Of a DNA stretch of 64,000 bases, positions 49,812 through 54,282 are shown piece after piece (the first letter of the stretch is position 1; each line of letters begins with the position of its first letter). The stretch lies in assembly GCF_001278075.1 (NCBI RefSeq), contig NZ_CP011340.1, positions 2,976,001-3,040,000 on the forward strand, in the 5' to 3' direction. The notes below the pieces were generated by a model that was given only the letters and a program-made list of their open reading frames with translations, was not told where the DNA came from and ran no database searches. Source of the DNA: Streptomyces pristinaespiralis (GTDB taxonomy: Bacteria; Actinomycetota; Actinomycetes; Streptomycetales; Streptomycetaceae). The translations under genes and the position numbers were made by a program.

Positions 49812-50498
49812 CTACCTGTCCCCCTGTCGCCGCACCATCTCCGTGATCCAGGTGGGTGCGAACGGAGACGTGCAGCCCGGCGACGTCGGGTAGTCCTTCA
49901 GCACCTGCAGGCGCTCGCCGATGTCGAGTGCGCGGGCGCGGTGCTCGGCGTGCTCGATGCCGATCTGGGCCAGGCAGTGGTTCATCGCCCACTGCAGGCG
50001 ATCCGGGGCGTCCTTCATCTGCGCCTCGATGACGTCGAGCAGCCCCGCGAGGTCGAGGCCCTCCGGCTTCTTCGCCACGCGCTCGGTGGTCAGCGCCCAG
50101 CCGGCGCTCGCGACCACCGGATCCTGGTCCGCGGACCAGGTCTGGCGCAGGTCTTCGGCGTGCGGGCTCTTCTTCACCACGTAGTTCACGAGCCAGTCGT
50201 GCACCTTGGGTGAGCGCGCCTCACGCAGCATGGCGTCCAGTTGGTCACGCCCGAACGCCTTCGGGCGGCAGATCAGGATCGCCAGCAGTCTCGCCGCCGT
50301 GTCACCCGTCTCCCAGAGCCGGCACGCGAGTTCCTGCTGCGTCTTCAGCCGCTTCGCGAGCGCGCGCAGCTTGCTGAGGTTCACGCCGTGATCGTCGCCG
50401 TGCTTCTCGTTCACCCGGCGGATCTTCGGGTCCTCGAGCTCGGCCAGCTCGGCCATCACCTCGGCCACCGTCGTCCCGGTGAGCGTCGTCTCGGCCAC
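49812..50498 (-). CDS. DNA alkylation repair (AlkD-like HEAT repeat) protein
   Basis: 228 residues from GTG 50498, with AAGGAGG 5 nt upstream. All-helical HEAT-like repeats: LRALAKRLKTQQELACRLWETGD, RLLAILICRPKAF, VHDWLVNYVVKKSP, WALTTERVAKKP. This resembles the AlkD/DUF-type 'DNA alkylation repair protein' family, which recognises alkylated bases. The catalytic Trp/Asp pair was not confirmed. It is monocistronic. Confidence 0.75.
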   Translation of the reverse strand: MAETTLTGTTVAEVMAELAELEDPKIRRVNEKHGDDHGVNLSKLRALAKRLKTQQELACRLWETGDTAARLLAILICRPKAFGRDQLDAMLREARSPKVHDWLVNYVVKKSPHAEDLRQTWSADQDPVVASAGWALTTERVAKKPEGLDLAGLLDVIEAQMKDAPDRLQWAMNHCLAQIGIEHAEHRARALDIGERLQVLKDYPTSPGCTSPFAPTWITEMVRRQGDR

Positions 50499-50629
50499 TT
50501 CAGCCTCCTTACCGTCACGCGCGGGACTCAGCCTACGACGGGGCCGGCCCCTGGTCGTAGACGCCGGTCCGGCGGCAGCCTCCGACGCGGAATGCCGGGT
50601 CGCCACCTTGATGGAAGTGCTCGGCACCG

Positions 50630-51214
50630 TCACCCCGGGGCGTCCTCGTGCTGCCAGGGACGAGGCCAGCTGCCGGACGGAGGAGGCGGGCCCGTGATGC
50701 CCAGGTCTCGGCGTGCCAGGGCGTAGAAGGCGTCGCGGGCCTCGCTCATGCGGGCGACGGACTTCTCCCAGCCGGCCTGGTCCTCCTTCCGGCCGCGGGC
50801 GTACAGCTCGACGTTCCACACCGCCTCGTGCCAGGTGCGGGCCGCTCCTATGGTTTCGGCGTCACCGACGAGCAGCACGGACTCCCACTCGGCCGCGCGC
50901 CGGGCCTCGGCCTCCACGAGCTGGGCCAGGCCCTCCTCCGGGGGCAGAGGGTCGACGGCATGGTGGAAGCCCCTCGCGGCGCTCATGCGCTGCGCGATGT
51001 TGATCTGGTGCTTCAAGGCGTTGGCATAGGACGCGTAGGTGTCCAGGCGCTTCTGGTCCCAGCGTTCTGCTTTCGCTCGTCGCCAGCGGCTGCGCTCGGT
51101 GAGGCTGGTCGCCAGGTACGAGCCGGCGGCTCCCACGACAACACCAGCCAGGGCGGGCAGTTGGTCCCACAGCAACGGTTCCCCCACGAGGCAGATCGGA
51201 CAGTCGTCCGACAC
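50630..51214 (-). CDS. Hypothetical membrane-anchored protein
   Basis: About 194 residues if started at GTG 51214; TTG or GTG codons slightly downstream are possible. One N-terminal hydrophobic helix (LPALAGVVVGAAGSYLA) is followed by a basic stop-transfer (TERSRWRRAKAERW) and a helical charged domain. Many Streptomyces phage- or plasmid-like regions carry similar short coiled proteins. No function. Confidence 0.55.
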   Translation of the reverse strand: MSDDCPICLVGEPLLWDQLPALAGVVVGAAGSYLATSLTERSRWRRAKAERWDQKRLDTYASYANALKHQINIAQRMSAARGFHHAVDPLPPEEGLAQLVEAEARRAAEWESVLLVGDAETIGAARTWHEAVWNVELYARGRKEDQAGWEKSVARMSEARDAFYALARRDLGITGPPPPSGSWPRPWQHEDAPG

Positions 51215-51279
51215 AGTGCCGTACTCGGCATCCGTGGGGTAGGTGGCCTGTCCGTCCCGCTCCCGGCCGGGGAGAGACC

Positions 51280-51357
51280 GGGCGACGGCTCCGTACACGG
51301 CCGGGACCCGGACGTGGACGGGCGACGGCTCTGTACACGGCCGGGACCCGGACGTGG
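51280..51357. repeat. 40-bp tandem duplication
   Basis: GGGCGACGGCTC.GTACACGG and its continuation to GACGTGG recur with a 40-bp period at 51280 and 51320. It lies between the hypothetical gene and the permuted tRNA cluster. Confidence 0.7.
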
Positions 51358-51362
51358 CGGGA

Positions 51363-51388
51363 CCCGGGAGTCGTATCCAGCTCCCGGG
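51363..51388 (-). terminator. Hairpin downstream of the permuted tRNA-like cluster
   Basis: CCCGGGAG / CTCCCGGG, 8 bp with a 10-nt loop, about 57 nt beyond the end of unit 2 on the minus strand. Likely end of that transcript. Confidence 0.5.
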
Positions 51389-51444
51389 CCCCTGGGGATG
51401 CCACCCAATTGCGCACGCCAGTGGCGTTTAAGAGTACGGATCAG

Positions 51445-51525
51445 TCATAAGGCCGACGTGTTCTTCCTTTGAACTACCGCACCGTGTGAGAGGTGCAGGC
51501 TGGATTCGAACCCGCATCCGCCGGC
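51445..51525 (-). tRNA. Circularly permuted tRNA-like gene, unit 2 (anticodon UAU)
   Basis: Read on the minus strand, the 3' half (51525-51491) comes first: GCCGG, variable loop CGGAT, T stem GCGGG, T loop TTCGAAT, CCAGC, acceptor CTGCACC and discriminator T. A 7-nt spacer CTCACAC follows. The 5' half (51483-51445) is acceptor GGTGCGG, TA, D arm GTTC-AAAGGAA-GAAC, ACG, TCGGC, then loop CTTATGA. The acceptor strands pair over 7 bp (one G-U) and the anticodon stem over 5 bp (one G-U). U33 and G37 are canonical and the anticodon is UAU. One T-stem mismatch and a 3-nt D-to-anticodon linker are atypical. Flanks GGGTACGGA (51539-51531) and TCCGTACTC (51440-51432) pair over 9 bp. No CCA is encoded. 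Confidence 0.7.
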
Positions 51526-51588
51526 GTTCGTCCGTACCCGGTCGATCTGGCGATCGGTGGCGATGCTGAAGCTGGAGCGAGAGTCTGA

Positions 51589-51672
51589 GTTTGATCACGG
51601 CTGCCTCTGCCAAGTTGGGCCACCCCGGCGCGTAGTGCCGGGGGAAGGACTCGAACCTTCACTGTCACCGTG
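51589..51672 (-). tRNA. Circularly permuted tRNA-like gene, unit 1 (anticodon CAA)
   Basis: On the minus strand the 3' half (51672-51636) is CACGG, a 7-nt variable loop, T stem GAAGG, T loop TTCGAGT, CCTTC, acceptor CCCCGGC and discriminator A. A 6-nt spacer CTACGC follows. The 5' half (51629-51589) is acceptor GCCGGGG, TG, a D arm with GCC/GGC pairs and GG in the loop, CCGTG, then loop ATCAAAC. Acceptor (7 bp) and anticodon stem (5 bp) are fully Watson-Crick. U33 and A37 are present, and the anticodon is CAA. A tRNA-Leu would need a long variable arm, so charging identity is uncertain. Flanks GCTGAA/TTCAGC and CTGAG/CTCAG are complementary. Alternative: two fragments of one degraded tRNA gene. 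Confidence 0.75.
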
Positions 51673-51750
51673 TCGTCAGGCTGAACCTCAGTTTCAGCTT
51701 GCGCCCATCGCGCGAGCCGGTCCTCATTTCCGGCCCGCGCCTGTTGCGCA

Positions 51751-51807
51751 CCCCCGCGCTCTCACGCGGGGGCGATCGTGGGGCCGACGCCTCGGAGGCG
51801 CCGGCCG
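51751..51807 (-). terminator. Two hairpins between the unknown gene and the tRNA-like units
   Basis: GGCCGACGCCTC / GAGGCGCCGGCC (about 51782-51807, one mismatch) and CCCCCGCG / CGCGGGGG (51751-51772, loop CTCTCA) start just after the stop of the upstream gene. They may terminate it or separate it from the tRNA-like RNAs. Confidence 0.6.
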
Positions 51808-51814
51808 GTGTGCG

Positions 51815-52546
51815 TCAGCCGAAGAGGTAGCCGAACACCGCGTCGCCGACCCGCTGGTCGGTGACTTCGGCGCTGTTGGCCTCCTCGCGGGCGAACTTGA
51901 CCGCGTTCTGGAGCTTCTCGACACGTTCCAGGAGCTCGTTCACCCGCCGCGCGGGGAGGGCTCCGGAGAACTTGACCGTGGTCCAGTACCCGATCGGCAC
52001 GTCCTCGTAGTACACCTCGACCTGTGCCGGGTGCTTGTCCGTCGCCTCGGCCTTGACGTGGTTCCGCGGAACCTTCTTCGTCCGGATCGTGCGTACGGGG
52101 TCCGTCTTCCACCAGTCCGTCGACGGGTCGAGCGACCAGGACTCGGCAGCGTCCAGCACGGGAAGCTTCTTCACGAAGGTGTGCAGGTCGACGAGCTGCT
52201 TCTCCAGGAAGAGCAGGTAACTGACCGGAGCGTCCGGGACGATCGTCCGCCCGTCGACGACGACGTCCGCGCGGGCCGAGCAGTTGGCCCGGTCCTTGGT
52301 GGCGGTCACGTCGAACAGCCGGGTCAGCGACGCCGACATCTCGCGGAGCACGTCCTCGGCCTTGACCTGGACCCTGGTGGACTCGGGCGGCAGTTGCTCG
52401 CCCTCCTCGTCCTTGGGCTGGTAGGTACGCGAGATTCCGGCCAGCAGTGCGACCTTCTGCACCCGCTGGTGAGCCGTGGTGATGTCCTGGAACGACTTGC
52501 TCTTGACACCCTTTTCCACGGCGATGATCTGATTGAGCTTCGCCAC
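51815..52546 (-). CDS. Conserved protein of unknown function upstream of the permuted tRNA-like genes
   Basis: 243 residues from GTG 52546, preceded by GGGGGAG. It reads VAKLNQIIAVEKGVKSKS at the start, is rich in charged alpha/beta segments, has no transmembrane helix, and ends with AEVTDQRVGDAVFGYLFG. From memory it belongs to a uncharacterised family (DUF7873 type), but I cannot verify this. It contains Arg/Lys-rich stretches (TIRTKKVPRNHVKAEATDKH) compatible with nucleic-acid binding. It lies 117 nt upstream of the first tRNA-like unit on the same strand, so a functional link to processing or use of these RNAs is possible. Confidence 0.75.
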   Translation of the reverse strand: MAKLNQIIAVEKGVKSKSFQDITTAHQRVQKVALLAGISRTYQPKDEEGEQLPPESTRVQVKAEDVLREMSASLTRLFDVTATKDRANCSARADVVVDGRTIVPDAPVSYLLFLEKQLVDLHTFVKKLPVLDAAESWSLDPSTDWWKTDPVRTIRTKKVPRNHVKAEATDKHPAQVEVYYEDVPIGYWTTVKFSGALPARRVNELLERVEKLQNAVKFAREEANSAEVTDQRVGDAVFGYLFG

Positions 52547-52754
52547 TTCTCCCCCTTCGAACAGCAGCGAACGTACCGGAGGAAGTGGTGCGCGGTCCCC
52601 TGAATTTCGGCGACGCCGCCGGGCCGGTGGCGGTTCGTTGTCCCGGACGCCGCTGGACGCCGCTGGTCGCCGCCGCCCGGTCGACCGTCGAGAGGGCGCC
52701 GGGTCGCCTCGCCGTGGGGAGCCGACTGCCGCCGAATAAGGCCCCGGGACACGT

Positions 52755-52788
52755 GAGCCCTGCCGGGCAGCAGTGCCCGGCAGGGCTC
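52755..52788 (-). terminator. 15-bp hairpin downstream of the MFS gene
   Basis: Perfect GAGCCCTGCCGGGCA / TGCCCGGCAGGGCTC stem with a GCAG loop, about 35 nt after the transporter stop. Confidence 0.85.
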
Positions 52789-52821
52789 TCGACCGGTCCG
52801 GCGGCCGGCCGGGGGGGAAGT

Positions 52822-54282
52822 TCAGGCCCGGGCCGCCGCCTCCGAAGGCGTCCCGGTCGCCGGGGCCGCGGCCCCCTGCGGGCCGGCCGCCGCCCGTCCC
52901 GTCGGGATCAGGAACGCGACCACCGCCGCGGCCACACCCACGCCGCAGCCGATCAGCATCGCGGCGCGGAAGCCGTCCTCCGACGGCAGGGCGAAGCCGC
53001 CGAAGTCCGTGGTCATCTGGGCCAGGACCACGCCGATCACCGCTGCCGACACCGAGCTGCCGATCGAGCGCATAAGGGTGTTGAAGCTGTTCGCGGAGGC
53101 GGTCTCCGACTGGGGCACCGCGCCCATGATGAGGGCCGGCATCGCGCCGTACGCGAAGCCGATGCCCGTGCTGCCGACGATGGTCACGACCAGCAGGCCC
53201 CAGGTGGAGCCGAGGAGCGGCAGGGAGACGCCGTAGCCGAGGGCGATGATCAGGCTGCCCACCGCGAGGGTGGTCTTCGGGCCGTACGCGGCCGACAGCT
53301 TCGCGCCGAGCGGCGACACGATCATCATCATCAGGCCCGCCGGCGCCATCCACAGACCCATCGCCAGCATCGACTGGCCCAGGCCGTAGCCGGTGGCCTC
53401 GGGCAGCTGCAGCAGCTGAGGCACCACCAGCGACTGGGCGTACATGGCGAATCCGACGAGGATGGAGGCCGCGTTCGTCATCAGGATCTGCGGTCGGACG
53501 GTCACGCGCAGGTCGACCAGGGGCTCGCTGCTGCGCAGCTCCCAGCGGCCCCAGACGAGCAGGATCACGACCGTCGCGGCGAACAGCCCGAGCGTGGTGC
53601 CGCTCGACCAGCCCCAGTCGGCACCCTTGGAGACGGCGAGGAGCAGGCAGACCAGTGCGCTGCCGAGGCCGATCGCGCCGAGCAGGTCGAAGCCGCCGGG
53701 GGCGGCGTTCGTACGGTCCGCCGGTACGAGGAACCGGATGAGGCCGGCGATCAGCAGGCTCAGCGCGGCGACGACCCAGAAGAGCACCCGCCAGCTGACG
53801 TTCTCGGCGATCGCGGCGGAGAACGGCAGGCCCAGGGCGCCTCCCACGCCCATGGACGCGCTCATGACGGCGATGGCGGAGCCGAGCCGGGCCGGCGGCA
53901 CCACGTCGCGCAGGAGGCTGATCCCGAGGGGGACCACTCCCATGCCCATGCCCTGCAGTCCGCGTCCGACGATCATCGGGACCACGGAGGACGAGAGCGC
54001 GCAGATCACGGAGCCCGCGATCAGGGGGACCGTGGAGACCAGAAGCATGCGTCGCTTGCCGTACATGTCGCCGAGCCGGCCGGCGACGGGGGTGGCGACC
54101 GCCGCCGCGAGCAGCGTGGCCGTGATCACCCAGGAGGCGTTCGAGGCGCTGGTGCCGAGGATGGTCGGCAGTTCGCCGATCAGCGGGACCACGAGGGTCT
54201 GCGTGATCGCGGCCACGATGCCCGCCAGGGCGAGGATGCCGACGACGCCGCTCACGCGGGTGTCGGCCTGGGAACGGTCCAC
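52822..54282 (-). CDS. MFS drug-efflux transporter (14-TM DHA2 type)
   Basis: 486 residues from GTG 54282, with AGGGAG 5-6 nt upstream. About 14 hydrophobic segments; the motif A-like loop GRLGDMYGKRRML after TM2 and the motif C-like GLQGMGMG segment are present. By family it exports drugs or toxic compounds by proton antiport. Divergent MarR gene and shared operator sites suggest ligand-induced expression. Confidence 0.93.
   Translation of the reverse strand: MDRSQADTRVSGVVGILALAGIVAAITQTLVVPLIGELPTILGTSASNASWVITATLLAAAVATPVAGRLGDMYGKRRMLLVSTVPLIAGSVICALSSSVVPMIVGRGLQGMGMGVVPLGISLLRDVVPPARLGSAIAVMSASMGVGGALGLPFSAAIAENVSWRVLFWVVAALSLLIAGLIRFLVPADRTNAAPGGFDLLGAIGLGSALVCLLLAVSKGADWGWSSGTTLGLFAATVVILLVWGRWELRSSEPLVDLRVTVRPQILMTNAASILVGFAMYAQSLVVPQLLQLPEATGYGLGQSMLAMGLWMAPAGLMMMIVSPLGAKLSAAYGPKTTLAVGSLIIALGYGVSLPLLGSTWGLLVVTIVGSTGIGFAYGAMPALIMGAVPQSETASANSFNTLMRSIGSSVSAAVIGVVLAQMTTDFGGFALPSEDGFRAAMLIGCGVGVAAAVVAFLIPTGRAAAGPQGAAAPATGTPSEAAARA

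Follow-up and report, generated by a model that had tools for sequence, protein, structure and literature searches.

Organization of the locus

The window, a 64-kb stretch of Streptomyces pristinaespiralis DNA, carries a gene for a DUF7873 protein and, directly downstream of it, a structured RNA (Table 1). The ends of the RNA were inferred and give a length of about 370 bases. Two tandem tRNA-like units were located within it at 51698-51565 (unit A) and 51537-51434 (unit B), both on the minus strand. A sequence-only reading had proposed a circularly permuted tRNA-like architecture at this place, and two units of this one design are indeed present. In both units, the T arm is followed by the acceptor 3' strand, a loop of 7-8 nt, the acceptor 5' strand, U8 and the D arm. 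The acceptor stems were paired at 7/7 positions in both units, with one G-U in unit B, and GG was found in both D loops. The flanks of the units were complementary, with GCTGAAACTG/CAGCTTCAGC in unit A (one A-C mismatch) and GTACGGA/TCCGTAC in unit B. These features agreed with the earlier description. Each module is enclosed by an anticodon-position stem and, further out, by a closing stem formed by the flanks. The anticodon-position stems were CCGTG/CACGG in unit A (5/5 pairs) and CGTCGGC/GCCGGCG in unit B (7/7 pairs, including one U-G). Thus the stems of the reported anticodon arm stood, but its loop did not: an anticodon loop was absent in both units, and the strands continued into the closing helices.

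Table 1. Features of the DUF7873 gene and the downstream RNA (window coordinates)
Feature	Position	Strand	Evidence
DUF7873 (PF25283) gene, 243 aa, presumed RNA partner	51815..52546	-	Pfam 399 bits, cutoff 27; identical 243-aa record (P0002)
Whole structured RNA, inferred extent	51363..51736	-	5' hairpin to 3' hairpin, both seen in 81-row alignment
5' hairpin, TGAG in loop	51716..51736	-	By eye in alignments, pairs uncounted
Unit A closing stem, 5' strand	51689..51698	-	9/10 pairs counted; 91.8% of cells paired, 81 rows
Unit A anticodon-position stem, 3' strand in tRNA order (CACGG)	51668..51672	-	85.2% of cells paired; two-sided changes at 4/5 pairs
Unit A T arm (GAAGG-TTCGAGT-CCTTC)	51644..51660	-	Alignment pair counts
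Unit A acceptor 3' strand	51637..51643	-	Fully paired (100% of cells) in rows with the module
Unit A acceptor loop (ACTACGC), 7 nt	51630..51636	-	Loop-edge counts
Unit A acceptor 5' strand	51623..51629	-	Pair counts, 81-row alignment
Unit A D arm with GG	51603..51620	-	Pattern scan and alignment pair counts
Unit A anticodon-position stem, 5' strand in tRNA order (CCGTG)	51596..51600	-	Alignment pair counts
Linker motif TCGCTCCAG, conserved	51572..51580	-	Streptomyces and many phage loci, small changes
Unit A closing stem, 3' strand	51565..51574	-	Pair counts, 81-row alignment
Unit B closing stem, 5' strand	51531..51537	-	7/7 pairs with two-sided changes, two alignments
Unit B anticodon-position stem, 3' strand in tRNA order	51519..51525	-	94% of cells paired, 81 rows
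Unit B T arm, 4/5 pairs in window	51499..51515	-	Alignment pair counts
Unit B acceptor 3' strand	51492..51498	-	567/567 cells paired
Unit B acceptor loop (TCTCACAC), 8 nt	51484..51491	-	Loop-edge counts
Unit B acceptor 5' strand	51477..51483	-	Pair counts, 81-row alignment
Unit B D arm with GG	51460..51474	-	99.7% of cells paired
Unit B anticodon-position stem, 5' strand in tRNA order	51452..51458	-	Alignment pair counts
Unit B closing stem, 3' strand	51434..51440	-	Two-sided changes across alignments
Motif CTTAAACG, conserved	51425..51432	-	Streptomyces and most phage rows
3' hairpin CCCGGGAG/CTCCCGGG, GGATAC in loop	51363..51388	-	93.5% of cells paired

The terminal hairpins varied among loci. 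By eye, the 5' hairpin was absent or different in some loci of the Streptomyces group (e.g. L053, L070-L088), and the 3' hairpin of phage loci carries CGGATATG. A six-base repeat pattern, ARR-YTN, was seen on both sides of unit A (51565-51698) and in the homologous flanks of many loci. A coding reading of this pattern was set aside by eye because its lengths and frames vary across loci. In addition, a CRISPR-DR29 match below cutoff (27.6 versus 39 bits) at 52757-52793 resembled a GC-rich hairpin.

ARAGORN called no tRNA at the locus, and neither in the window nor in five phage loci did any Rfam family reach its cutoff on the RNA. The predicted fold of DUF7873 was confident (mean pLDDT 91.4), and a search with it found no informative relatives. 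PHROGs held no family for the four DUF7873 proteins tested. DUF7873 was mentioned in no paper of the open-licence PMC literature, and the titles and abstract openings listed by searches of that literature named no such RNA.

Conservation and covariation in the Streptomyces group

Loci were collected by a search with the protein only, and the best 80 of at least 512 relatives were kept (79 Streptomyces, 1 Kitasatospora). The region downstream of DUF7873 matched that of the window in 80/80 of them (blastn E <= 1e-10). These loci and the window were aligned by sequence only into 81 rows (alignment A5), the RNA not being a selection criterion. In A5, 95.3% of 4983 cells were paired. Two-sided changes were found at 34 pairs, compared to 18.6 ± 1.8 in shuffled alignments, and none of 500 shuffles reached 34. 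When the partner columns were slid by 1-3 positions, pairing fell to 35-45%. The fully paired acceptor stem of unit B was built from several pair types. Compensatory changes in Streptomyces homologues had been named by the sequence-only reading as a check, and pairing was kept through two-sided changes.

Unit B was present in all 81 loci. However, the T-acceptor-D part of unit A was gone in 29/81, with its scaffold kept, which argues against a tRNA gene. In these loci, the anticodon-position stem seemed by eye to be closed as a plain hairpin, and the flanking AAGCTGAAACTGA and TCAATCTCAGACTCTCGCTCCAG were retained with small changes. Such natural variants are ready-made material for separating the function of the scaffold from that of the tRNA mimic.

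The earlier argument was that two units of one architecture make chance unlikely. The bare module pattern is not rare in GC-rich sequence. The module pattern gave a mean of 3.2 matches per dinucleotide shuffle of the window, and matches scoring at least 15 of 16 had a mean of 0.23 (70 in 300 shuffles, 13 of these 70 also with U8). The real window gave seven matches, two of which score 15 and lie on one strand 145 nt apart. Chance was excluded because the units are conserved and covary.

Linkage of the RNA to DUF7873

DUF7873 was found in 118 of 246 Streptomyces genomes, in two of them by a partial match only (G470, G498). Among 296 sampled Actinomycetota genomes it was found in six, all Streptomyces. 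A covariance model of unit B, R1, was built from 32 sequences, of which 20 came from the 79 positive distant loci described below and 11 from Streptomyces loci that possibly overlap the searched genomes. It was run on 199 Streptomyces genomes. The RNA lay 25-350 nt downstream of DUF7873 on the same strand in 93/93 positive genomes, a count that includes G470 with its partial gene. All 90 R1 matches of at least 75 bits were adjacent to DUF7873. Three further adjacent matches (G424, G171, G305) scored 57-59 bits, no better than tandem tRNA genes. Scores below 60 were counted only beside DUF7873 because a tandem tRNA-Asn pair reaches 53.6 bits. The other sub-60-bit matches identified among those listed were this pair and six partial ones lying 1.2-1.3 kb from TROVE genes; one DUF7873-negative genome had a match of 58.3 bits, also among those listed.

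The flanks of the cassette were diverse, with 40 clusters among 74 left flanks and 40 among 77 right flanks. The 11 ORFs around the cassette of the window included no neighbour common to the 80 loci, apart from one match of one ORF. Because the flanks are diverse and the neighbours unshared, DUF7873 and the RNA behave as a self-contained, probably movable pair.

Two genomes were unusual. In G470 (C1:5682540-5682953), only an 85-residue DUF7873 match adjoins an RNA model match of 94.8 bits, and the RNA is retained next to a possibly damaged gene. G512 has two equal-scoring DUF7873 copies in opposite orientation near both contig ends (C1:26964-27686 and C1:9777627-9778349), which possibly lie in terminal repeats.

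Phage and other distant loci

DUF7873 matched 73 phage records, from Vibrio, Gordonia, Rhizobium, Klebsiella, Serratia, Arthrobacter, Pseudanabaena, Rhodococcus and Microcoleus phages, and a Rhizobium-phage query matched 88 phage records. IMG/VR yielded 234 contig stretches coding for a relative, and the best 80 of the 234 were kept. The distant set comprised 91 loci (10 named phages, 80 viral contigs and 1 Nonomuraea). In the 700 nt after DUF7873, the permuted pattern occurred 137 times, compared to 2.75 in mononucleotide shuffles. It occurred 30 times in the 700 nt upstream, and these occurrences are probably tandem tRNAs. Under strict thresholds, both units at standard spacing were found in 101/172 loci (52/81 of the Streptomyces group and 49/91 others).

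Of the 91 distant loci, 79 had a full-length R1 match of at least 46 bits downstream of the gene and on its strand; these 79 represent 73 distinct downstream sequences. The distance from gene to RNA was 107-774 nt in 78 of the 79 (within 500 nt in 70). In L101, it was 1978 nt, with another gene between. The RNA lay on the opposite strand in L162 and upstream in L164, with two recognisable units in each. Thus unit B was near DUF7873 in 81/91 distant loci (90 of the 91 being phage or viral). No strong unit B match was found nearby in L102, L120, L133, L134, L142, L144, L152, L172, L179 and L180, of which L120, L172 and L179 are cut by a contig end.

Covariation was scored in two alignments, A3 for unit B (32 rows) and A4 for unit A (41 rows). 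A scan with a minimum of 4/5 pairs in the T stem, 6/7 in the acceptor and 3/4 in the D stem supplied the loci for A3, A4 and R1; the closing and anticodon-position stems were outside these selection criteria. L127, L142, L158, L170, L171, L058 and near-duplicates were dropped, and units with longer loops and L098 were left out of both alignments. The covariation score was 0.692 for unit B compared to 0.217 after shuffling, and 0.478 for unit A compared to 0.151, with one D-arm pair misdrawn in A4 (pairing in 1/41). The closing stem of unit B showed two-sided changes at 7/7 pairs, with 82.6% of cells paired. Its anticodon-position stem showed them at 5/5 pairs, with only 66% of cells paired, and that of unit A was paired in only 56%. 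When partners were swapped among 40 loci, the mean helix score fell from 12.6 to 10.2 in unit A and from 12.2 to 10.4 in unit B, and none of 200 swaps reached the observed values.

Relation to bacterial Y RNA

The above results showed that both units are modules of one conserved structured RNA beside DUF7873, present in about half of the sampled Streptomyces species and in many phages. Each module has retained the T arm, acceptor stem, U8 and D arm with GG, and the anticodon-position stem joins longer helices, which is the architecture of YrlA. The elbow nucleotides were conserved, with T8 in all units counted. YrlA (RF02553, associated with the Rsr/Ro60 TROVE protein) likewise has T arm, acceptor hairpin and D arm in permuted order and is closed by a stem between its 5' and 3' ends; three Streptomyces loci have it in tandem next to TROVE. 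The sequence-only reading had known of no standard bacterial example outside permuted tmRNA, but such a precedent exists: the Rfam model of YrlA shares the topology, and a passage of PMC11472068 describes a circularly permuted superposition of the bacterial Y RNA 6CU1 on tRNAs. Unlike YrlA, the RNA found here is partnered by a DUF7873 gene and not by TROVE, carries two modules in one longer RNA, has conserved motifs of its own (TCGCTC, CTTAAACG) and falls below the Rfam cutoff. The locus is very probably a new cassette of a Y-RNA-like noncoding RNA and DUF7873, shared by many Streptomyces and phages, in which the units are permuted tRNA-like modules. The RNA is classed here with the Y-RNA kind and might still constitute a separate class.

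It is unlikely that the RNA is a true YrlA family member acting with Rsr/Ro or PNPase. The topology is the same, with a permuted module closed by a stem of both ends. In the region 50000-53000 of the window, the Rfam search gave only sub-cutoff YrlA matches (25.3 and 24.8 bits against a cutoff of 69), and three of five phage loci scanned gave 33-37 bits, also below it. This cutoff is a weak test of membership because the TROVE-linked RNAs of Streptomyces fall short of it too (33.6-39.8 bits). In three Streptomyces loci (L195, L196, L197), two tandem Y-RNA-like units each precede a TROVE gene and share its strand, with sub-cutoff scores of 38-40 and 34 bits; Streptomyces Y RNAs look under-annotated. 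The association with TROVE, however, was not found. TROVE was not detected in this genome, and it was found in 6 and not detected in 32 of 38 DUF7873 phage or viral records, some of which may be fragments. Among 246 Streptomyces genomes, 65 had both genes, 53 DUF7873 only, 56 TROVE only and 72 neither (p = 0.097), so that the two genes are not associated. The Streptomyces TROVE matches span only about 60 of 442 model positions. In addition, the R1 matches to six TROVE-linked RNAs were confined to the T-acceptor-D part. Some genomes carry both genes. The Deinobacterium chartae genome has DUF7873 and TROVE, and in a Rhizobium phage (L099, MN988560.1, W06) DUF7873 (107514-108275) and TROVE (113363-114106) are about 5 kb apart, with RtcB elsewhere. 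RtcB was found in 2/38 of the DUF7873 phage or viral records.

Alternative interpretations

The RNA could be nicked. RNase P and 3' processing would then cut the acceptor loops, and base pairing would keep the pieces together, like those of two-piece tmRNA. The loop edges resemble pre-tRNA ends, which makes RNase P cutting possible. Outside Streptomyces, C74 was present in 38/39 A and 38/39 B units, T at -1 in 21/39 A and 30/39 B, and C at -3 in 35/39 A and 27/39 B; counted over all units, C74 was present in 174/178 and C at -3 in 162/178. In the Streptomyces group, however, T at -1 was rare (2/50 A, 13/50 B), and CCA was found in 0/50 B units. YrlA is not known to be cut in such an acceptor loop, which also speaks against processing here. 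We consider a nicked RNA improbable. Permuted two-piece tmRNA resembles the units in its permuted order and in an acceptor built from two strands. It differs in the acceptor 3-70 G-U, which was absent here except in 1/39 non-Streptomyces A units, and no tmRNA model match was found at 50000-53000.

The units had first been taken for tRNA genes. In that case, the transcript would be ligated on its anticodon side and cleaved within the acceptor loop, yielding two tRNAs. Algae and one archaeon have permuted tRNA genes in which the 3' half also precedes the 5' half across a short spacer, and the algal pathway relies on a splicing motif (PMC3978253). The permuted order with a full tRNA elbow fitted this explanation. 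In addition, CCA was encoded after the acceptor in 18/39 A and 14/39 B units outside Streptomyces and in 18/50 A units of the Streptomyces group. Positions 34-36, a crude reading at a fixed offset, were mostly TCA in unit A of that group (41/51) and ATG or CTG in unit B (37/51). However, the same offset gave 27 kinds of triplet in 40 A units and 22 in 40 B units outside Streptomyces, and a complete anticodon arm with a conserved anticodon was not found since the loop is not closed. Residue 73 was A in most A units, whereas B units had T or G, which points to no single tRNA identity. Unlike the algal and archaeal genes, unit A is dispensable, the closing helices are conserved, and both units are embedded in a longer DUF7873-linked RNA. 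The existence of tRNA genes here is thus very improbable.

Relics of tandem tRNA genes were rejected as a negligible prospect: two tandem tRNA-Asn genes of this genome (L001) do mimic both models (YrlA 40.7 bits, R1 53.6 bits), but the window has no outer tRNA halves, the closing helices are conserved, and compensatory change across species and phages took the place of the loss of pairing expected of decay.

GOLLD and ROOL are likewise structured RNAs of phages and bacteria, and GOLLD is known from tRNA arrays, going by the title of a cited paper. They gave no Rfam match in the window or in the five phage loci, and the RNA found here differs by its tRNA-like modules and its fixed protein gene.

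Possible function of the cassette

For the Y-RNA-like cassette, a role may be proposed by analogy. DUF7873 would bind the RNA scaffold, and proteins that handle tRNA would be decoyed by the tRNA-like modules or dock on them, in analogy to YrlA with tRNA-modifying enzymes and PNPase. PMC8394870 describes a tRNA-like domain of YrlA, its modification by TruB and DusA and an Rsr-PNPase complex, and competitive inhibition of a tRNA nuclease is suggested as possible for Y RNA in a passage of PMC7790460. Taken by itself, the decoy or docking mechanism is tentative and somewhat doubtful. A fuller proposal, to which we would give slightly less than an even chance, is an undescribed RNA class in which a two-headed tRNA mimic and its dedicated DUF7873 form a movable, Ro/Rsr-independent cassette of phages and Streptomyces that engages or misleads host tRNA-handling or tRNA-cutting enzymes. 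These results suggest that tRNA mimicry of the Y-RNA type is modular and can be reused with a protein other than Ro. With the cassette, an RNA and its protein become open to testing both in tractable Streptomyces and in phages available in culture (Mimi, Phendrix, NiceHouse).

In phages, the RNA might serve to protect the phage's own tRNAs or to process them, or it might weaken host enzymes that target tRNA. No annotated tRNAs were in view in four of the ten named phage regions (Pam2, My-WqHQDG, KpLz-2_45, PA-SR01). They were in view in the other six (Mimi, Phendrix, NiceHouse, Ziko, RHph_TM21B, Keelan), which bears on the role of phage tRNA clusters and their neighbours. Separately, a stretch of the Gordonia phage Phendrix region with no annotated feature (L095, 2063-2591) matched tmRNA at 89 bits (RF00023, cutoff 47).
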